NCBI GenBank assembly: GCA_007922305.1 | Contig: ML677335.1 | Span: forward strand, 19,316,246-19,380,245 | DNA: 64,000 nt | DNA from: Dermatemys mawii | Taxonomy: Eukaryota; Chordata; Testudines; Dermatemydidae | Direction: 5' to 3' | In this document: in pieces, positions 12,427 to 61,441 of the stretch | Numbering within the stretch: position 1 is the first letter of the stretch | How the letters are laid out: the number at the start of each line of letters is the position of its first letter | Translations under genes and position numbers: made by a program | The notes under the pieces: generated by a model | Told to the model about the DNA's origin: nothing | Databases searched by the model: none | What the model saw: the letters and a program-made list of their open reading frames with translations, nothing else

Positions 12427-13460
12427 TCACACCGTACCCTGGCCAGTCATGAAACTGGCTTTCAAAGCTTCTCTGATGCACAGCACGCCCTGCTGCACTC
12501 TTCTAATCACCCTGTTAGCTGGCTGTGCAAAATTGGCCACCAGGTGATTTGCCTCAACCTCCCACCCCGCCATAAACATCTCCCCCTTACTCTCACAGAT
12601 ATTGTGGAGCACACAACAAGCAGCAACTACAATTGGAATATTGGTTTTGCTGAGATCTAACCTAGTCAGCAAACAATGCCAGTGAGCTTTCAAACATCCA
12701 AATGCACATTCTACCACCATTCTGCACTTGCTCAGCCTATAGCTGAACTGCTCCTTACCACTGTCCAGGTCCCTGTGCACAGATTCATGAGCCATGGCAT
12801 TAAGGGGTAGGCTGGGTCCCCGAGGATAACTATTGGCATTTCAACACCCCACTCCCACAAACAGTAATTTTCTGGTCTGGGAAGTAAGTCCCTTCCTGCA
12901 GCTGTTCAAACAGCCCAGAGTTCCTGAAGATGTGAGTGTCATGAACTCTTCCTGGCCATCCCCTATTGATGTCTGTGAAGCATCCCTTGTGATCGATCAG
13001 TGCTTGCAGCACCATGGAAAAGTACCGCTTGCGGTTTACATACTGACTGCTTCGGTGTTCCGGTGCCAAAATAGGGATATGCATTCCATCTATCATCCCA
13101 CCACAGTTGGGAACTCTAGCACATTGAAGCCATCCACAGTGGTCTGCACATTTCCCAGTCACTACCCTTGATAGCAGCTCATCAGTGATTGCATTGGCTA
13201 CTCGCAGCACAGCAGCCCCCACAGTATATTTGCCCACTGCAAACCGATTCCCGAGTGACTGGTAGCTGTTGGGCATTGCAAGCTTCAGCAGGGCTGTGGG
13301 CACTCACTTGTCAACTGTGAGGGCTGCTCTCATTTTGGTGTCTTTGTGCTCCAGGGCGGGGGCGAGCAAGTCAAAGTTCCAAGGAAGTGGTCCTACGCAT
13401 GTGAAAATTTTGTAGGCACTGGGAATCATCCCATACCTGCAACACTATGTCTGTGCTTGT
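12427..13460 (-). pseudogene. Harbinger (PIF/IS5-type) DDE transposase, broken
   Basis: Reading leftward: LCDLLAPALEHKDTKMRAAL, then LAMPNSYQSLGNRFAVGKYT, the first catalytic Asp in GGMIDGMHIPILAP, the second in GWPGRVHDTHIFRNSGLFEQ, GDPAYPLMPW, and the Glu in MVVECAFGCLKAHW. These are the core motifs of HARBI1-type nucleases in the right order. A stop near 13307, another near 12830 and at least one frameshift near 12.79 kb break the frame, so no full protein is made. It converges on the SANT gene, an arrangement seen in some Harbinger elements. All three catalytic residues are still readable, suggesting moderate age. Confidence 0.85.
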
Positions 13461-21672: not shown

Positions 21673-22344
21673 AGCATGCACCAATTCCCAGATCCTGCAT
21701 GCATGCGCAAACATCTGTGCAACATTTAGTGACATTAAACTGACAGAATGCTGAGCTCAAGCAATAGCCTGGCATTTTAAATCTAGCTAGCTTTCTTTGT
21801 ACAGCCAGGGATTAGTGCTTGAAACCTATAAATGAAGTTTTGTGCATACACTTTTTGAAAATTTGTTCTTAAAAGATTCCAAGATAAGAATTTGTCACCA
21901 TCTGCCAACTACAAAATGTCTTTATTTTGAAAGTTTTGAATTTCCATTGGTATTTCTAAGTTATGGGGCAAGATGAAAGGCATAAAGGGACAAAGCAATC
22001 TTCACAAATGCTCAGGCCATCTTATAAAGGAAGCCCACGGAGAGTCATCCTTATAATCTACAACCATAAAAAGAGCCATTCAGGAGAAGTATTTTCTTTC
22101 ACAAGTGCACGGCCTTACTGATAGGATGCCTATGGTGGCAAGATAAAGAGTCCCATTTAAGCAAATTTCCCATTGTAACTAAGACCAGTTTTGTCCTTTG
22201 CAGCTCGGTGCTATGCAGTGCAGTACTTACCTATCGTGCCTACAGAAGGCTTGTGGAGGGACAGGGGTCTACCCCATCTATGAAGCATCCAACTAGTTAT
22301 GTATAAGCATACTTAGCTATGATATAATGGTTTTAAAGTGCAGG

Positions 22345-29301: not shown

Positions 29302-29853
29302 TCACAGTTTTGTCATTGGTATGTGAAGGTTATTCCAAGGGCCCATCCAGAGCTCCTCTTCCTCTGAGTGTGTGTGATCGCTGTGTGATTCCAAGGGCTC
29401 TCTGACATCCTCATTATCAACAACAGACTCTTGATCTTCTGTGCTTTTCATTTTGTGGCCCCCAGACTTTGTTGCTATGTTGTCAGCCCCTCTAGCAGTG
29501 GAGGCAAATGAGACACTAGACGGTCTTGTGTTCAGTTTGTCACTAGAAGATGGCCCCTTTGACAATGTGTTCAATGGGACATTCTCCTCATGTGTCACTG
29601 CTAGCTTGTCCAATTTCTTGAAGTGTTTCCCCAGTCTAACAGGGGATGCGACTTTTAAATTATTGGAGAGACAAATGCGACGGGTTCTCACAACTGACCC
29701 ATTCTGCGCAATATAGATATTGCCATTTACATTGTTTTGAATATTGGGGTTGTTAAGACGATTCCTCTGGCATTCTGGAGCACTGTCTTCTCCAGTTGAG
29801 CTGGTCTCATATTCTGGATCAACTACTAACTTGATCCTTTTCTTTCTGGCCCA
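29302..29853 (-). CDS. PCDH15: PCDH15 3'-most terminal coding exon (CD3-like by gene order)
   Basis: This exon codes for 183 residues. It starts WARKKRIKLVVDPEYETSST, then GEDSAPECQRNRL, NIYIAQNGSVVRTRR, KVASPVRLGKHFKKLDKLAV, THEENVPLNTLSKG, an acidic SEEEELWMGPW segment and the C-terminus IPMTKL. These blocks match a mammalian PCDH15 tail strongly. The acceptor is TTGTCAAACAG|TGG, in phase 0 with the 136-nt exon; the stop is TGA. MTKL fits a class I PDZ ligand. Whether mammalian usage calls this CD2 or CD3 I cannot settle here; order and length favour CD3. It is the last PCDH15 coding exon in the window. Confidence 0.93.
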   Translation of the reverse strand, partial: WARKKRIKLVVDPEYETSSTGEDSAPECQRNRLNNPNIQNNVNGNIYIAQNGSVVRTRRICLSNNLKVASPVRLGKHFKKLDKLAVTHEENVPLNTLSKGPSSSDKLNTRPSSVSFASTARGADNIATKSGGHKMKSTEDQESVVDNEDVREPLESHSDHTHSEEEELWMGPWNNLHIPMTKL

Positions 29854-30229
29854 CTGTTTGACAACAAAAGAGAGTTTATTAAATCACAACATAATTTCTT
29901 ACATTTTTTCAGCTTTTATATTCTACCTAGTGTTTCAAATACCTAATCTATTTTATTAAGTTATTTTGTAACTTTTCATTTTAATTTGTACATCGATCAT
30001 TTCCATTTAACTGTGCTATTACTGTTGAATGCTGCAACATTGAACAACTTCCCTTACTCACTGGATGTAAAAGTACTGAGAAATCTGCATACCTGCTGTT
30101 AAACAACATTTCAGGTAGATACCAGGCAAAGGCAGAAAAATCTGACATATTTCTGAGAGAGCTTCCAAGATTAGAAAACCATTTTAATGTTTTTGCTAAA
30201 TTCACATCCAGCTGTCATCAGAGAGTCTG

Positions 30230-34588: not shown

Positions 34589-36331
34589 TTAAAAGGATGT
34601 GGAGTCAGCAGCAGTCTCTGACTCTGATGCAGCAGTGTCAGGAGTCTCATCTGACTGAAGTTCGCTGTGTGTTGAGGAAATCTTTTTTCTTAGATTGATT
34701 CTTTTCATATTGGAATCAGAACTTGGAAAATCTGATTCTTGGGAAGCATCCGTTTTAATAGAAAAAGTGGCACTCACTGAGCTCTTTGTCCCTCTGCTGC
34801 CTTTGGAAGTAACACTATTTTCACTTTCAAGGCTTTTTGATTCACTCCTACTGAGAGTTTCTTCCATATCCTTAGCATCTGTACCAATCTCTTCTGTGCT
34901 TTCAGACACGCTACTTCCAACACTAATATCTGATTTTCTTATCTTGCTCTGTTCACTGGAAGTTGTTTTTTGACTGATGGAAGATGTTTCAGATATAGTC
35001 CTATCCCTTATATTGTCACCTGCCTCATCAGGGCTTGTATCATCTTGCTCCAAATCTGATTTTTCATCTTCCTCTGATATCTCCTCTATTGTGTCTTCTA
35101 TTTCGCTGCCAACTGTGGACATTTTTTTCTTGTAGCTGGATCCAGAACTCTTTCCAGAACTCTTGCTTCTGTCACTTACTGATCCCTTACAGCTAACTTC
35201 GCTGTTAGAATTCATCACTTCTGACCTGTGACTGGAATCCCTTGTTCCTCCACTAGATTTACTTCCCTTACTTGACAAACTAGTTCTTTCACTAACTCTT
35301 CTGCTATTGGAATCACTATACTCAGATCTGCTGTAAGAACTCTGATTTGAGGATACCTTTGACTGGAGGTCATCTTCATCACTGTCAGAGCATTTATTCT
35401 GAGAACCAGAAACTTGAGAAAGGACACTTTTTGACTTTTCCTCATCTTCTTCCTCTTCAGAGTGCTCAGATATGTCATCTTCTGATTCATCCTGTTCATT
35501 ATCTGAATTGGATACAGAATGATTATCTTCTGAATCCCGTAAATCTCCCTCCTCTTCATCAGAGTCCACAGTACTTTCATTGGTTTCATCTTGGTCCAGT
35601 GTCACTTTCAAATAGTCTTTATCATCTGCCTGAGAGGCAGAGATACTACTCCTTGCTGATGATTCATCAACATCTGAAGCAGCAGATTTTCTTTTTTTCT
35701 TCTTATCATTGTCATCAGTCACATCACTAGCCTCTGGCTCACTTTCTGCTGTGATATTAATTGAAATGCCTGATTTTGTTTCATCTCTTTCAGATTCACT
35801 CACCCTCTGACTTTCAGAGTCTTCCCCTCCTTGTTCACTTGCAGATACTGAACTTCTGCTAACAGAGCTCTGAGATTTGCTATGCTTTTGAAATTTTTTG
35901 GAAGCACTAATGTGTTTTAGCACATGACTTAGTTTTCTGGTTGTTGAAGGTCTGTCATCTGCTGATTTCTGGAAATAATTTCCTTTGATAATCATGCTGT
36001 CTTCACTGTCCATTGGGCGAGCTGACATCAGCTTGGCATAATTGGAATCTTTGCTACTGCCTTTTACTTTCTGTAGAATCATTGGAAATATCTTTGCTTT
36101 CTTCCATGGAGAATGAGCAGACTCAGTTGTTCCATCTCGTTTGTGGGCTTTTACGGCTATTCGACTCAACTGCATCACTGCTTTTAGTTTTCTTTTCCCC
36201 TGGCTGGTCCTATGTTCTCTTCCAGAACCATCTCTTAGATCCACCCCACCACCTAAAATGCTACCTTCTATTTGATGCCCTGCTCTTTGGTTTATACCTC
36301 TGCCTGGAGGACCTTTGCCTTGACTCATCCC
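34589..36331 (-). CDS. PCDH15: PCDH15 long alternative terminal exon (CD2-like by gene order)
   Basis: An open frame of 580 codons plus a stop at 34589-34591, preceded by the acceptor CATAATTGCAG and in phase 0 with the 136-nt exon. The first 160 or so residues are strongly basic (MSQGKGPPGRG, KRKLKAVMQ, KKAKIF, TTRKLSHVLKH). The rest is dominated by Ser, Asp and Glu with many SDSDEDD-like CK2-type sites, one basic KKKKRKS cluster inside the acidic part, and a C-terminus ADSTSF that fits a class I PDZ ligand. I assign it to PCDH15 by strand, phase and position between firm exons. The CD2 label follows gene order (CD1, CD2, CD3) and is not certain. It looks longer than the mammalian CD2 tail as I remember it. 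Confidence 0.85.
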   Translation of the reverse strand, partial: GMSQGKGPPGRGINQRAGHQIEGSILGGGVDLRDGSGREHRTSQGKRKLKAVMQLSRIAVKAHKRDGTTESAHSPWKKAKIFPMILQKVKGSSKDSNYAKLMSARPMDSEDSMIIKGNYFQKSADDRPSTTRKLSHVLKHISASKKFQKHSKSQSSVSRSSVSASEQGGEDSESQRVSESERDETKSGISINITAESEPEASDVTDDNDKKKKRKSAASDVDESSARSSISASQADDKDYLKVTLDQDETNESTVDSDEEEGDLRDSEDNHSVSNSDNEQDESEDDISEHSEEEEDEEKSKSVLSQVSGSQNKCSDSDEDDLQSKVSSNQSSYSRSEYSDSNSRRVSERTSLSSKGSKSSGGTRDSSHRSEVMNSNSEVSCKGSVSDRSKSSGKSSGSSYKKKMSTVGSEIEDTIEEISEEDEKSDLEQDDTSPDEAGDNIRDRTISETSSISQKTTSSEQSKIRKSDISVGSSVSESTEEIGTDAKDMEETLSRSESKSLESENSVTSKGSRGTKSSVSATFSIKTDASQESDFPSSDSNMKRINLRKKISSTHSELQSDETPDTAASESETAADSTSF

Positions 36332-37228
36332 CTGCAATTATGAAAAAGGAACTTAATTACAATTTGAAAGATAGGTATTATGAAAACTTGCTATCCTAAA
36401 ATAGTTCAGCCGGAAGAGAATGAAGAGTTAATATCACCACGAAACATTTTTCCTGGAATCAAAACCAGCTTACCTGTTATCATATAGTTTTATTGCCAAA
36501 GTTTCTGGGACTCAAAGAAAAAGTTTAACTTCTAGATTGGGCAATTAGTTCCCAGCGATTTTACTCAGTTATGCAACAAAAGACTGGCTCAATCATTACA
36601 GCTTCTTTTCTAGTTAATAACATTTTTTCTATCTATAACATACTTTTTCTGAACATTAAATTTAAACATACAACTTCATATGATTTTTTTCTAGCATTTA
36701 CTGGGCATTTTCATTTATTTTCCTTACACTCCATTGCCAAGCATTATGATAAATTATTATAGTAACTATTGTGTTCATCTGCAGATAATCAGTTATAGCC
36801 AGTTATAGTCAGTATAACTAATGCAGATATAAGTAATATAATAAACCATTGTTTAGGAATATAATCATATATGAGGTTATATATTTTTCTTACTGGACAA
36901 GAAATCCATGATTTAATGGAAGATAGCTCTATGTAGATTAAAAGCAGCTTTGTAATTCTTAAAAAAGGAAAGGAGATGATGACATGAAAATCATGATCTT
37001 AAAACCTTCTATTTGGAAAAGCAATTTTCTTCTTGACATATCACCAATCATCACAATCGAAAATCTCAACCAGGTTTCATTGGATCCTTAATGCTCTGAA
37101 GAGTCTAAATTTGTTTAGCTAGTGTGTGCACAAAATAATGCACTAATTAATTATGCAAAGAAAACCCGGAAATGTTAAAAGATACTCCCTTATTACAAAA
37201 TGGAATCAATTTAATATATTACACTTAC
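36332..37228 (-). other. PCDH15: PCDH15 intron before the CD2-like terminal exon
   Basis: AT-rich, with no coding signal and no recognised repeat. Confidence 0.6.
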
Positions 37229-38317: not shown

Positions 38318-39980
38318 CTGTAAACCAAAAGAGAAAACTGATTGAACGGAAATACTTAAACACATAGTGATGGTGATAAGGAATGCAGAAAAGAGTATTA
38401 CCAAAAAAAAAAAAGACAAGAACTACAGTGAGTGCCTTTGATTACTATCACTTGCCATTTCAATAATACATTCTCAGGTGGCTATGCTATTTTTTTCTCA
38501 TGCCTGAGCTGGGATGCTAGTGAATCATAATTCAAAAGGCTTCTGTGGTGTTAAAAAACACTGTCAGAAACTACAGTCAGCACATGAGTAATCTAAGGCC
38601 AAGAGGTGCAATAAATGCTTTATTTTAATGATATAAACCCAGAATTGTCACAGTTAGCAAAGATTCAAGTGTGTAAAAGTTGCATATCCTTCTGTGTGGG
38701 AAAAGTATTTTTCAGTTGTAATTTACAATAGCTTTATTCAGCATAACTGACTCATCACAAATATACTGTCACTTTTCTCAAGAATTTTCATTTCTTGCCT
38801 TCATGCCCCATATCTTTCCATAGGACTGTTTAAAAGCATTCCTAGCCTAAGATGGAGACTATTTTCTTTACAGTATTTGCCAGGCTCTACTTCAGAACAT
38901 GTCTTCTGTTGATTTGCTAACAATTGTTATTGGCAGTACTGAATCAGAAGGCATGATTTTGTTTATATCATACAAAAATACCATTGTACCCTTTAAAAAT
39001 CTTCACAGTCCCTGTGATGTTACAGAGAAAATTATTGTCTTGCAAGGTAGACAATAAAGTCTTTTTGAAAACAAAGGCATCAAAACTTGGAGTGAGGAGG
39101 AGGAAGGTGGCTGTCTGCTACCTTTGTACTCCCCTGATCACTAGGAATCCTGGGGGCAAGTCCAGCATTACATAAATTAGAGCATCCTCAGAGCTGTTCT
39201 AGATTCCTTTTTCTTTTCCAGTGGCTCCTGGGAGTTAGTCTGATTTCCAGGGATTGTTGGAATTCCATGGCAAGCCATCCCCACACCTTTCCCAAACTAG
39301 CATCTATGTCAACTATATCAGCTTTACTTCACTGGTGGTTCCCATATTCCAGAGGAATCTTCAGCTGGCCATACTGGCCAGCTTTAAGTCAGCATTGCAT
39401 CACTAGTACAGTGCAGGGCATGTTTATCAGGATCAGGGATCTAACCCAAAGGACCTGCTCCTCCTGAAGTTAATGGGAGTTGTTCTGTTGATTACACTGG
39501 AAGCAGTATCATGTCCAAGTGATTTTAATTTAAAGCATCAAGGATATAATCCAGATCTTTCACTACACTTTTATTATTTTTGGAAAGGCAGCTACCCACC
39601 TCATCTCTAGAAGTAATAATGACCAACTGACTGGCACCAGAGAAACTAGATAAAAATGTGATAGCAAATAAAATTATTCTGTTTATTAATCTGAAAAAAA
39701 ATGCTAATAAGCTTTGCAGTTGGTGGGGCTGAAGTCACCAATAATGACTGAAAGAAGTGGGAGCTTGCTCCATGGAAAAATGTCATGAGGCAGAAAATCT
39801 CATATTTAATCAAATCAAATAAACGGAATTTTAAAAAATCAGGGTTTTTTTCTTCTACGAAATAAACATTTTTTTCAGTGGTGAAGAAAAGCCTTCCTGG
39901 AAAATAGAAATTTAGATCAGAAAATACTGTAAAGGCTGCTTTGAAAGTTACAGAATAGTATGACAGGGAAAAAATAGTAC
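38318..39980 (-). other. PCDH15: PCDH15 intron, no recognised element
   Basis: AT-rich sequence between the 74-nt and 39-nt exons. An A-run lies at about 38402-38413. I see no exon, and no repeat I can name. Confidence 0.6.
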
Positions 39981-47888: not shown

Positions 47889-49293
47889 TTATAATGCAGT
47901 GGACTGGGATGGAAATCGCTTTTCAAGTTCCTCAACTAAACAGCTCAAGTTGCCATTCTGCTGGCTGTGCTCAGCAACAGTTGCTGTAGTTGGCAGTTCG
48001 GATACTGCAATTGGTTTAAGCTTGGATATATGCTTGGGTAGAATGTGGTTTTTGTCTATTTGACTGTACATGTTGGCCACAGATTTTTCAATATCTGCCA
48101 AGTTGTGAATATTTTTGAGAATCCCTTTCAACTCCCTGTGAGGTGGTGGCTCAGGTACTGTGGCCTGTGATGATACTGGCAGCTGTTTGGCTGGGGACGT
48201 AGTATGCTTTATAGGGGAAAGGTGCTGGGTACTTAGACTAGATGAGGAGGAGAGGGCTAGAGAAATGGTAGGAAGAGATTGAGGTTGTGGTGGCAATGGA
48301 GGAGGAGTTGGAGGAGGAGGTGGCAGCAGGGGTGGTGGAGGAGGGGGAGTTTTGGGTGGATCTGGAATGCTTTCTGTTACTTGCACTTTGGTTTGAGCAG
48401 CCAGAAAACTTTGGCAAGCTGGTCTCTTTATCATAGAAGAGGGAGTTGGTGGTTTGTGAGTTGGTGGAGGAGAAAGTTCTTCAGGAAAGTCATGATGAGT
48501 GATGATTACTGAAGGAACTGCAAGAGATTGAAATTCAATTGCTTCAATGGAAGGTGTCAAAGAGGAGAAAGAAGGAGAGCAATGGCATGGAGAAGCAAGC
48601 AGATGTTCAGGAGACAGCTCTAGCGTGTTTTCTCTTTCTTCATGGTAATTGCTGTGTGTTGGTGAATGTGAACACTTCATAGCATAGGATTTCACGTGTT
48701 TCATTTCCTGCAAAGCCTGTTGCTCAAACTGTCTTGCTTTCTCTTTTACAGTTAACTTGGTGCCAATTTTTTTTTTAAATATTGGACTGCTAATATCAAC
48801 CCTGCTGTGCTGATTGTCGCTTCTTTCATTCTCTGCTTTGAGTCTTTCCTGTTGCCACTGAACTGGATCCATGATAATTGGCCTACTTAGAGCATCAGAT
48901 ACATGTCTCCTAGTAATACGAATTGGTAATGTCCATGCACGGTGAATGCCTCCCAAAGGGCACCCCAAAAGGGCATCTTTCAAGGCTAATCTTCTAGGTG
49001 AAAGACTGTCTAAAACATCTTTCCTCTTCTGTAGCAATGAAGAGTTGGGTGAACCTTGAACAACACCTTCCATATACAAAGGATTCTGAGTTGTTAGTGG
49101 GTTCTCATCAGATAAAAATGTAATGTTACTTGCTGATTTGGGGAGATTATTGTTCAACGATCCATTGATATTAGACTGCTTGTGAGCTTCAATAGCACGT
49201 GAAGCAAAGCTGCTTATTACTCTTTGACGGTCTCCTTCTTCTAAGACTGACTTTTTTCCCCTGCTTTGTTGGAAATGGTAGAGAAGAAAAAGA
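47889..49293 (-). CDS. PCDH15: PCDH15 CD1-type 3' terminal coding exon
   Basis: This codes for 467 residues of intracellular tail that define the CD1 class. It opens LFLLYHFQQSR, followed by an FLSDENP...NPLY motif (about residue 58-73), a basic mid-section, an LSP-rich part, a poly-proline block (about residues 312-335) and a conserved GILKNIHNLADIEKSV...MYSQ segment (from about 389) before the C-terminus PSQSTAL. The human CD1 tail has the same order of landmarks and ends STSL. The acceptor is TTTCAAG|T, entering in phase 2; two residues present in human after the junction Met appear absent. The stop is TAA at 47889-47891. The last four residues, STAL, fit a class I PDZ ligand. The 3' UTR must lie below 47889; its end is not resolved. 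Confidence 0.93.
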
Positions 49294-54125: not shown

Positions 54126-54236
54126 ATGGTGCTGTCACCGAGTTCTTCATAGAGATTATTGGCAGTGCTACTTGACGGTTTGCCGGCTGGCAAGGCCATC
54201 TGGATTCTTGCTGTCTTTGCACATTCCGCTTGCCGC
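54126..54236 (-). CDS. PCDH15: PCDH15 shared juxtamembrane cytoplasmic exon
   Basis: A 111-nt exon coding for the first cytoplasmic segment: RQAECAKTARIQ, a short Ser/Ala stretch, then NLYEELGDST. RQAEC and YEELGDS are hallmarks of PCDH15 in mammals. The acceptor is ACCAAAG|GCGG and the donor ACCAT|GTAAGT; both junctions are phase 2. Splicing onward to 49293 completes codon AT-T and gives the CD1 tail; splicing to 42435 completes AT-G and gives the CD2/CD3 path. The mammalian exon, as I recall it, carries a proline run between the two conserved ends; here that part is only about ten residues (GKPSSSTANN), so the turtle segment is shorter. Confidence 0.92.
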
Positions 54237-55366
54237 CTTTGGTAAGTTGTGCAGGGAGGGAAAAAATGTGTGTTAGAAATATTCTGTAGTGTACATGGGC
54301 TGACATATAGTAGTCAGATGGTAGTTCCTCAAACATTACTGGTTTTGTATTCAAAGAAAGGTAATCTTGTGAGCAATTTGTTTTAGCTTTGTATCACTCC
54401 ATCGCTTGCTCTTTCATTATGGAATTCCAGAGCTCCAAAAGGTATCTAAATACTATCATTCATTTTATATAATTGCAAAACCACTTGATCATCACGAAAT
54501 AATAAGAGATTCATTAGCAATTACATTTAATTGACTAAGAGGCCAATTAAGCTTTAACAATACTAGTTTTCATCAGGTGTTCTGTGGTGAACTGGGTGCT
54601 TTGGCAAAGCCACTCATTTATTGACATTGATTCATATCACATTTTAATTTAAACATTTGTAAAGTCTCCCTCCAAGTTTAATTTTTATGACTTGTAACAC
54701 CTTTATCGGCATAAGAACTGGTGAACAATTTCCCATTTGAATGATTTTTCCAAATGCCCTTTTCGTAAAATTGAAATTTTATGTATGAAAATTTCAGTTT
54801 TGTTGAAAAATGTTGATTGGCTATCAAGGAAATCTAAATGATGGTCACCGGAAAGCTCTTGTTAATTTCACCTTATGTCTGCAGGCAGAAAGTGAAAGTA
54901 ACAAGAGACTGAGGACCCTGGCTCTGGTTTGGAGGTAAGGCAAGGAGGCTGAGCTCCAGGGAGACAGAGAACCAGGGCAGAAAATTAAATTGACAAGAGT
55001 TTTCAAGGTGGGCACCTTCCATTTTGGATGTCCTGAAACCAATATTTTTCAGGAAATCTCTTTCTGCAGAAATATTTGCATTTTTTAGGGGAAAAAAACA
55101 TGATTTTTTTCATGGGAAGAGACTTCCATTTTTTGGCCAGCTCAAGTCAGCACGTAGACCATAAATGCAAGCCCTCTAGCTCATTTGTAAGGGTGAAAAA
55201 GAGCAAATAATAACTATATGACTGGTAACAGTACTGAGAGAAATTTAGTTCAGAATAGAGTACAACAGACTCTACCTTGATTTTCAAAATAATTCATGAT
55301 TATTATTATTCACTTTTATATTATGGTAGTGCTTGGAGTTAAGTTGTCATTTACTGAAGTTCTAAA

Positions 55367-56593: not shown

Positions 56594-57333
56594 AAATAAA
56601 TGATGTAAAAAGCAAGTGGTTCAATTAACATACAAAGAAATCAAGTTTATAGGCATATATACATATAGATAGATATGTGTGTGGGGTGTTTTCAGTTTAA
56701 TATAAACTATTTTTAATATCAAGCTATTATTTATTCAGTATGTATATGTCGTATACAAGATATTTTAGTATTTAACCCTATTACTTGGATTCCCTAGCTA
56801 GGCAGAGCCTATGAAAAAGTTAAGAGAACATTCAACTCAGAGTTTTTTGAAGCATCCCATCAACAGGGAGCGATGGGTAGCCTATGAGCTGGCAAGAGTA
56901 AGTTCCTCTGGTATAATAATTTTCAGGATCAAAGAGGAAAGGACCTCTTATATGAACAGAGGTAGGCACCATCTTACTGGCTTCCTCTTCCTGGAAATTT
57001 GGCTCCTGGAGTAGAAGGCACAGCCTGGGTAAACATACTGTGGCTTCTTCGGAGCATCCACAGAATCAATTCTCACCAGAATTAACCTTCACTAGCGTCA
57101 TGAATGAAATAGGGGATGTTGTCATGCCTCCATGTCCCACACAGAGCCAAAAGAAAATTCTTCACAAAGAAAAAGAGAGATTGTTGTTGTGGAAGCATTA
57201 TTTCACCTTCAGCATGGGCCTAAAACCCACTCCACGTGCTTTAGCAAAGCAGACCCGCAGAGCATACCACTGGTTTACCAAACCTGCTATCTTGTCTATG
57301 ACATTGGCCAACAGGTGATCTTTTATAAGATGT

Positions 57334-57460: not shown

Positions 57461-57842
57461 TTTATAAGACAGCATCACATCTTTAAACCTATGCACCTAG
57501 GTTAATTATATAATGCTGTACAATGGGGAAAAATCCTCTCTTTTCTCTGCAGGCAAACAGCATGAAATTTGATTGCCTAAGCTTAGCACATAACTGAATG
57601 TCTTATTAAATGGTCATAAAATTAACAAGTTTCTTTTAAAATCCAGCCACAAAAAGATCTCAGGTATCGCAATGCATTCTACGGTTTGACTATATGAAGT
57701 ATTTCCTTTCACTGGCAATAAATTTACTTCCCTTAAATTTCAAATGGGCTTTATTCTTGATAAATGATAAAAAGTAGATATTGATTAGTGATTATTATTC
57801 TTAAACAAGGTGTAAGAAGCAAATCTAAAAGTAAATACTTAC

Positions 57843-57851
57843 TCTTTAAAT
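57843..57851 (-). CDS. PCDH15: PCDH15 9-nt cassette microexon
   Basis: Minus-strand reading gives a long CT repeat, TTGCATAACAACAG, then ATTTAAAGA, then the consensus donor GTAAGT. The nine bases are in phase with both neighbours: the transmembrane exon ends CA, the next exon starts G, so inclusion gives Q-F-K-E-R-Q and skipping gives Q-R-Q with the frame kept. Mammalian PCDH15 as I remember it reads YRQFKVRQAE here, so the F-K pair supports a real exon. The upstream pyrimidine tract and a UGC just before the acceptor are typical of SRRM4/SRRM3-controlled microexons. No transcript evidence is available to me. Confidence 0.8.
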
Positions 57852-57862
57852 CTGTTGTTATG

Positions 57863-57864
<2 letters not shown>

Positions 57865-57896
<32 letters not shown>
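57865..57896 (-). promoter_or_regulatory. PCDH15: CU-repeat tract upstream of the PCDH15 microexon
   Basis: (AG)n on the plus strand becomes (CT)n on the PCDH15 sense strand, ending about 14 nt before the microexon acceptor with TTGCATAACAACAG between. It can serve as polypyrimidine tract and as binding site for PTB-type repressors; UGC beside the acceptor is the SRRM4 recognition core. Function is inferred. Confidence 0.6.
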
Positions 57897-57899
<3 letters not shown>

Positions 57900-60027
57900 C
57901 ATGTTAAAAGTGTTCCATTTACAACAAAAGTTATCTGAAACAGTGAACCTTATATTAATATTAAACTAAGAATGGCAATCATTTTACATGTTAAATAGCA
58001 AAAGTAATGACATATTTAAGAACCACTATGTTTAAATAACTGAAAATCATTTAATTCCTTTTGTGACTGTGAGACTGTTATACAACTATCATCCATAAAC
58101 ATGAATTTACAGGGGAACAAATCAGTTATAGGCCACACAGAATCTGAAAAAAACATTGATTAAAGATGTCGATATCAAATTATGAATTAGGATTTTTAAA
58201 AGTGGAATATTAAAGATGAAGTAATTTTTATAACTGCCTCCTCATTTTAACATGGCGAATATTAAACAGTCCTTCATAGTAAAGGACAATTATATTTTGG
58301 CTTCTATGTGGAATTTGCCACCCTTGCTGTGATTAATTGACACTATATTTTTCATAATTGTTTTTTTGGTTTGTCCTAGATAGTGAATTTCAAGCATCAC
58401 TTAAAAAATAATAATAATGATAATTTATTAGATTATTTACAAGCAATACATGCAGTCAGTCAGCTGTGCTTTAACAGTGATAATTTTACATTAAAAGTAA
58501 GCAATGTAAAACTCATTTAGTTTAACTTTTATTTTTTTTTAAATGTAATAAAAGTAAAATTAATTCTTTGGATGTTAGTTCATCATTGAGCTGAAAAGTA
58601 TTGAAAAACTACCTACTACACACAAAAGAGTTCTAACATTAAGCAAGTCTTAATGTTTCCATTATATGTGCACTGAGTGTGACAGTTACATTTATTCAGC
58701 TATAATTTTTGCATTAAGTGGCAAAATTGAACTAGTTTGCCAGAATTGTTAATTGGGAGATTATATTAAACAGCTTTGGGAAAGGGGAGCTAAGAAGTAA
58801 GACAAAAATGAATTTGTTTTCTAAACAATTCAGTAGAGTATAAGGTTTATATTAAGATGGAAATCATTTATACTGTCTTCAGTCTACATGAATTGTATTG
58901 ATTTATTATTCATAGTACTAAAAATTTATTTGTGGTGGTTCGATAAAAAGTCCAACTGTACATGATACCAGTGGACCACAAAATTGTGATTTTAGACGGA
59001 CAGCAGTTAAATAGATTACTTAAAACAGCCTGATGTATTTGGGACCTGATTCTGTTCCTATAGATGTCAAGGGGAATTTTGCAATTTGCTTTTTCTTCCT
59101 GGAAAAAAATCACACAGAAGTCACATTGCAAACTAATGACAGCTTGAATCTTTGTTCAATAAAAATGTACTGTATGAAAATTTTAACAACCACCGTATGA
59201 CTCAAGAAACATGATCCAGCATAGGGATATATTTTCTGGAAGCATATTCTGAGGTGCAGGGCTCTCAGTGGTATATTTTGTTCAGGCAGGAAATGGTTAA
59301 ACACTGGTAGGGGAGAGGAGTATGAATAGGAAACCTGGAAGATGCACTTATTCAGCACACACTCCCCATTCAATCCTGACAGAAGGGCTCCAGGCTGGAT
59401 TGCCTGAGGTGCTTTAGGGTTATCCCCCCTAGATAGAGCCCCTGCCTAGTGCAGGAGCTGATTAAACCTATGGCCTTTCAGACTCTTTTTGGAGGATTTT
59501 TTCTCTAAAAAAAACCCTGGTAACATTCAGATATAAATGTTATTCAAACAAATATCAGCCATTTAAAAATAGCTATATAACCCAGTTACTCCTCTTATGT
59601 GATTATTAATCATGCCTTCAGGCATACTAGTGTTCTTTCATGCAGTGATGACTCCTTTAAAGATTAAGAAAATCTGATTTATAACACAAACCACCAGAAT
59701 GCAGATTGTCCCTATCTCTAGGAAATATTCTAACTCAGCTATTAAAAATGCCAAATTACAAGGACTACAGGTTTAAAGAGAATTGTTACTCAGCTTACAC
59801 TTGTAAAACATAAGATTGCTTTTGATTTTATTATCTGGAGCCCAAAGTGATAGCCACATACAATGTATAATGAATATGGACAGAGATACAGCTAAATTTA
59901 GCCCTATCATAAGTACAACTCATGATACTGTTGTTGCAGTTGCTTATGACAGAGCATTGACAAACAGTATTATGTTCTATCCCAGTTACCATGCAGGAAG
60001 GAACAGCAGGATCACATTCCAGTGATC

Positions 60028-61222: not shown

Positions 61223-61441
61223 TGTCTGTAGCTAACCATAACTATTAAAATAGCAGGCATGCAGCAAAGGATGATTATGACAGCCAAAGCAAGTAATGCT
61301 CCTTCTGTGTAGCCTACAGCTTGTGCCTGCTTCTTAACATTGGCCACCACGTCTGGGGTGCGGATTTCCAGAATACGTCCTCCTTGCCCAAGGTATGGCT
61401 GAAATTCTTTATTGATATCCAGCAGTTTTCCATCCAAGAAC
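61223..61441 (-). CDS. PCDH15: PCDH15 exon: membrane-proximal region and transmembrane helix
   Basis: This exon codes for the end of the protocadherin-15 ectodomain and its single membrane-spanning helix; the protein forms the lower part of the hair-cell tip link. The translation has the membrane-proximal stretch [10 protein letters not shown], then the RTPDV segment, then a hydrophobic run (about residues 46-69 of the exon, [13 protein letters not shown] and following) ending in VSYRQ. This matches my memory of mammalian PCDH15 almost residue for residue. On the minus strand the acceptor reads TTGAAG before G-TTC-TTG and the donor is ACA|GTAAGT, giving a 219-nt exon that enters and leaves in phase 2. 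No in-frame start belongs here; it is internal. In the family this helix contacts LHFPL5 in the transduction complex (established knowledge). The identification is secure; exact edges are by eye. Confidence 0.95.

Follow-up and report, generated by a model that had tools for sequence, protein, structure and literature searches.

A nine-base cassette exon of PCDH15 behind the transmembrane helix in the turtle Dermatemys mawii, with candidate elements for regulated inclusion

In the cited passages of two papers, the isoforms of PCDH15 are described as differing C-terminally and as sharing the part after the transmembrane (TM) helix (PMC4119359, PMC6092121), and variation by three residues within the shared part may therefore be overlooked. 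Next to the TM helix comes the common region; an interaction with LHFPL5 was reported for it earlier, but, according to the section cited, the cryo-EM map does not show this region (PMC6092121). The alternative C-termini CD1, CD2 and CD3, as outlined in part of PMC4119359, arise from the same gene and likewise by alternative splicing of the cytoplasmic portion; however, they swap C-terminal parts, whereas the nine-base exon dealt with here adds three residues in the part common to all three. In mammalian PCDH15, a segment F-K-V, found in the solved chains 6c13 and 6c14 and in many records, occupies the same joint (SYRQ-FK(V)-RQAEC), has the same length and is variable between isoforms as well, while it differs from the turtle segment F-K-E in its third residue, V instead of E. 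Both chains, which we take to come from the mouse PCDH15 study PMC6092121, read VSYRQFKVRQAEC, with FKV at that joint.

Microexons are exons of 3-27 nt, as defined in the part of PMC7935315 cited here. The neural microexons of the SRRM4/SRRM3 type share with the PCDH15 exon this size range, the keeping of frame and the order of pyrimidine tract, UGC and AG. They are defined by SRRM3/4 dependence and neural inclusion, while the PCDH15 exon, 9 nt long and with a UGC that discriminates little, resembles them, and likewise PTBP1-repressed exons, in its sequence. In the portions of PMC3464207 cited, the Srrm4 motif consists of a pyrimidine tract, a UGC near its 3' end and AG; mutation of UGC abolished Srrm4-dependent inclusion in six minigenes, and UGC did not emerge as a frequent motif in the upstream regions of 60 control exons. 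Opposition of PTBP1 to SRRM4 is discussed in passages of PMC3464207 and PMC8456117, the latter proposing such a competition for the cochlea. Exon 68 of Cdh23, for which regulation by RBM24, RBM38 and PTBP1 is stated in the cited part of PMC7397384, is an example of PTBP1-repressed exons with CU-rich upstream tracts; like it, the PCDH15 exon belongs to a hair-bundle cadherin gene, and it has a pyrimidine-rich element upstream.

The nine-base exon is already contained in database records from turtles other than D. mawii, from birds and from mammals, and no paper naming it or its regulation was found in searches of the open-licence literature. In the cited portions of PMC7652395 and PMC3464207 it is not named as an Srrm4 target; the former counts alternatively spliced exons of Pcdh15 among those with regulators still to identify, and the latter names PCDH15 solely for a deafness mutation.

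The window, that is, the whole stretch of D. mawii DNA analysed, comprises 64,000 nt. Five turtle PCDH15 records, compared by tblastn, place the exons in PCDH15 order and all on the minus strand: the TM exon, the next exon, a CD1-type C-terminal exon (STAL), pieces at 38320 and 37363, a C-terminal exon in CD2 position (STSF) and a CD3-type C-terminal exon (MTKL). The TM exon (61223..61441, 219 nt) encodes the end of the PCDH15_12th domain (Pfam PF23206), a linker and the transmembrane helix, ends CA/gtaagt and is 98.6% identical to turtle PCDH15 over 74 aa (tblastn). With the acceptor aaag/G, the next exon (54126..54236, 111 nt) starts the cytoplasmic common region, RQAECAKTARIQ...; the identity of these two exons to the five records ranges from 78.7 to 98.6%. 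Within the intron of 6,986 nt that separates them, positions 57851-57843 of the minus strand form the nine-nucleotide exon ATTTAAAGA (57843..57851), which is preceded by the 3' splice site AG at 57852..57853 (context AACAACAG) and followed by the 5' splice site GTAAGT at 57837..57842. The order on the minus strand is (CU)15.5-UGC-AUAACAACAG, the exon, and then GUAAGU, and the stretch from -85 to the acceptor is free of AG.

The skipped form reads ...VMVSYRQ-RQAECAKTARIQ... and the included form ...VMVSYRQ-FKE-RQAECAKTARIQ... (SYRQ-FKE-RQAEC). With microexons taken as exons of 3-27 nt, with a length that is a multiple of three and consensus splice sites on both sides, ATTTAAAGA is one of them, having 9 nt, AG and GTAAGT at its borders and both joins in frame. 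The coordinates, CT tract, UGC and donor given in a preliminary description of this DNA are right to the base on the minus strand; its phase-matching holds on both sides, since the skipped and the included join each keep the frame, and both joins bear out its placement of F-K-E right after the TM helix in a real, in-frame PCDH15 microexon. The donor is consensus from +1 to +6 and has A instead of G at -1. The third codon of the insert is split by the junction, GA/G giving E in the turtle, so that the mammalian V would imply a different last exon base (GT/G) if G is also the first base of the next exon there. The donor would then lack the consensus G at -1 in the E form as in the V form, as suits a regulated exon.

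With an exon this short, it might be argued that there is no exon at 57851-57843 and that the resemblance is due to chance; nothing besides the short length speaks for this. The spacing AG-N9-GT occurs 22 times in the intron, AG-N9-GTRAG twice and AG-N9-GTAAGT once, and the second AG-N9-GTRAG, at 56986, lacks a pyrimidine tract under the filter used. Among frame-keeping candidates of 3-27 nt with a GTRAGK donor, the ATTTAAAGA exon is the sole one in the intron. In 300 introns simulated with a first-order Markov model, which does not cover microsatellites, AG-N9-GTAAGT was seen with a mean of 0.087 per intron and of 0.000 when a pyrimidine tract was required; a looser donor with the tract gave a mean of 0.023 (300 simulations). 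Coincidence is also contradicted by the records of other turtles, birds, snake, gecko, gharial, toad and fish in which FKE stands, without deviation, at precisely this joint. On the conservation of FKE/FKV at the joint, the intron counts and the simulations, a chance match was rejected, its probability being practically nil.

Across the whole window and both strands, one other site passes the combined AG-N9-GTAAGT and pyrimidine filter. This second AG-N9-GTAAGT, at 22239 on the minus strand, has a pyrimidine-rich upstream stretch, lies beyond the last PCDH15 exon found and is probably a decoy. Also beyond that exon, at 12427-13303 on the minus strand, two ORF pieces correspond to the initial and the final part of DDE_Tnp_4, presumably a Harbinger-type transposase; by these matches they represent a broken transposon remnant.

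The preliminary description had made its reading of the exon depend on conservation outside D. mawii, and in protein records FKE or FKV was indeed found in other species. The best 120 of 1,102 proteins matched, sorted as non-mammals by organism name, include 43 with FKE and 77 without insert; the best 120 of 1,086 matched by a mouse-type query, sorted in the same way as mammals (one row being without name), include 90 with FKV, 27 without insert and three others. A search with a short query listed 107 proteins, two of which carry the joint pattern (Ameca FKE, koala FKV) while 105 do not. Of 242 records with readable joints among the matches listed, 44 have FKE, 91 FKV, 104 none and three another insert, the uniformity of the FKE and FKV sets being the result of selection, so that the fair count is that of the two lists of 120. 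The three odd inserts, all in the mammal list, are VFEG (P0312), LFKVVKFKV (P0313) and VLIR (P0314), possibly mis-predicted microexons. FKE carriers among the matches listed comprise turtles, birds, snake, gecko, gharial, a toad (P0174), Amia, Polypterus and paddlefish; a sturgeon record (P0108) and a tegu record (P0196) are without insert. Occurrence of FKE or FKV from ray-finned fish through mammals implies that the exon is older than the split between ray-finned fish and tetrapods.

Six pairs of records, mostly predicted, are identical over their whole length save the three residues, thus combining inclusion and skipping in one species: from duck, chicken, Perognathus, Fukomys (twice) and elephant (P0114/P0158, P0125/P0198, P0232/P0323, P0244/P0333, P0245/P0335, P0250/P0338). 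The rows are not independent of each other, and their order reflects likeness to the included form, for which reason inclusion levels cannot be read from their ratios; skipping may be over-counted, because an exon of nine bases can escape gene prediction, and the records with insert are mostly predictions, too. According to these protein records, ATTTAAAGA is a conserved PCDH15 cassette exon from ray-finned fish to mammals, used alternatively as far as annotation goes. It might be conserved and yet little used in turtles, if the CU microsatellite had expanded there and over-bound PTBP1: the insert is missing in 16 of the 19 turtle rows among the matches listed and present in three (P0111, P0115, P0116). 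Considering that a predicted record can miss an exon of nine bases, such low use is very unlikely.

The C-terminal exons, given here by their tblastn limits, which are not splice sites, also lie on the minus strand. The CD1-type exon, ending STAL, extends over 47892..49292 (92.5% identity to Gopherus evgoodei, 467 aa), the exon in CD2 position, ending STSF, over 34592..36334 (88.7% to Mauremys reevesii, 582 aa) and the CD3-type exon, ending MTKL, over 29305..29859 (90.8% to Carettochelys, 185 aa). Their closest matches among those listed are all from turtles, with the values just given for CD1 and CD2 and with 95.7% to Chrysemys and Lepidochelys records (P0171, P0167) for CD3. Class names follow the endings STSL, NTAL and MTKL, the last denoting CD3, as listed in the cited part of PMC5102745. 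The exon in CD2 position, a long and acidic one with many serines, has STSF at its end in place of NTAL; it matches the mammalian CD2 tail weakly (27.9% over 183 columns), so that this tail seems strongly diverged between turtles and mammals. Sorted by ending, the non-mammal list (best 120 of 1,102) has FKE in 24 of 34 STSF, 14 of 56 MTKL and 3 of 25 STAL rows and in 2 of the 5 remaining ones, and the 16 NTAL rows of the mammal list (best 120 of 1,086) have FKV in 15 cases, skipping in none and another insert in one. The higher frequency of FKE with the STSF end could be annotation bias or real coupling; since the rows are non-independent and mostly predicted and are sorted by their resemblance to the included form, the association is not counted as proof.

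Upstream of the exon, the (CU)15.5 polypyrimidine tract at 57865..57895 (minus strand, 100% match) is a candidate PTBP1 site. In the 200 nt upstream, CUCUCU matches 13 times (overlapping matches counted), where the intron average would give 0.46; the exon has beside it the CU-rich tract by which PTBP1-repressed exons are recognized in sequence. PTBP1 binds CU-rich RNA, and runs of CU are well-known elements through which it represses exons; this repressor potential was absent from the preliminary description. Between the tract and the exon lie 13 pyrimidine-poor nucleotides, which include the candidate SRRM3/4 element UGC (57862..57864, minus strand). The preliminary description, whose reading is supported in part, had connected this UGC with SRRM4/SRRM3 and raised hair-cell or neuron specificity and a variable tract length as possibilities. 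Its position, -13 to -11, does fit the published one, but UGC is found in -25 to -9 of 98 of the 393 AGs of the intron and also before the acceptor of the next exon, at -17 to -15 (54251-54253, minus strand), and UGC alone therefore discriminates little. UGC has four copies upstream and four downstream of the exon against 3.15 expected (200 nt on each side). The UGC of the next exon is a caution against taking single UGCs for SRRM4 sites; of the two elements, it is the (CU)n tract that departs more strongly from expectation. A branch-point-like TTAAC at 57903..57907 (minus strand), which starts 56 nt before the exon, is a consensus match only. A search of Rfam at the gathering threshold gave no match.

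A conserved microexon could also be included to a broadly similar degree wherever PCDH15 is transcribed, with neither neural nor hair-cell specificity, the (CU)n run being merely a strong polypyrimidine tract that compensates for the tiny exon size. The high base rate of UGC in the intron would agree with this, as would the fact that both forms are annotated within single species and in combination with several C-terminal classes. Since a CU run of 15.5 copies followed by 13 pyrimidine-poor nucleotides is of the PTBP1/SRRM type, and the donor is non-consensus at -1, uniform inclusion is considered rather unlikely. The main regulator might, instead of SRRM3/4, be a different factor of hair cells, for instance RBM24 or ESRP1. 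A review counts Pcdh15 among the genes with RBM24-dependent exons, although its cited section leaves the exon unspecified (PMC10018040), and for hair cells the cited part of PMC10987577 proposes ESRP1 and SFSWAP. Within 200 nt on either side of the exon, however, the RBM24 and ESRP motifs GUGUG and GGUGG have no copy, nor do UGCAUG and GCAUG, searched for RBFOX; control of this kind is regarded as distinctly improbable. In the same flanks, the NOVA motif YCAY is close to the intron average (three upstream, four downstream, 3.26 expected), and one QKI-like ACUAAY is located downstream of the exon, with 0.14 expected.

Inclusion set by competition between PTBP1-like proteins and SRRM3/4 is given an even chance on the basis of the elements described. 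PTBP1-like proteins on the (CU)n tract would block the exon in most cells, and loss of PTBP1 together with action of SRRM3/4 via UGC would permit inclusion in neurons and sensory cells. This switch is preferred, at roughly even odds, over SRRM4 alone because of the distinctive (CU)n tract and the opposition of PTBP1 to SRRM4. The best overall explanation, held with slightly better than even confidence, is a conserved PCDH15 cassette microexon with the proposed PTBP1-SRRM3/4 control and a juxtamembrane effect.

As to that effect, inclusion puts F-K-(E/V) between SYRQ and RQAEC, where the cytoplasmic common region makes its first turns. Three residues would lengthen a juxtamembrane helix by ~4.5 A and rotate the following part by ~300 degrees. 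A model of the fish fragment P0001, which contains FKE, has one continuous helix from 77 to 121 running through the insert (105-107); the model is poor (11 sequences, mean pLDDT 54, pTM 0.24), with a confidence of ~90 for residues 81-100, ~75 for the insert block and 55 for the next block. If this modelled helix is real, three extra residues would shift and turn everything after them. That lengthening and rotation alter the contact of the common region with the inner leaflet, LHFPL5 or TMC is put forward tentatively, as a doubtful possibility.

Taken further, the exon might provide a vertebrate-wide three-residue switch at the very point of entry of tip-link tension into the cell. The presence of F-K-(E/V) would then be set cell by cell by PTBP1 and SRRM3/4 and would alter LHFPL5/TMC coupling and the sensitivity of the transduction channel, either independently of CD1, CD2 or CD3 or preferentially with CD2; this proposal as a whole is improbable. 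The transfer of force by PCDH15 to LHFPL5/TMC could be probed with this variant of three residues, which occurs naturally, is conserved and lies where the common region begins; in the design of PCDH15 constructs for gene therapy or structure determination, one form has to be chosen.
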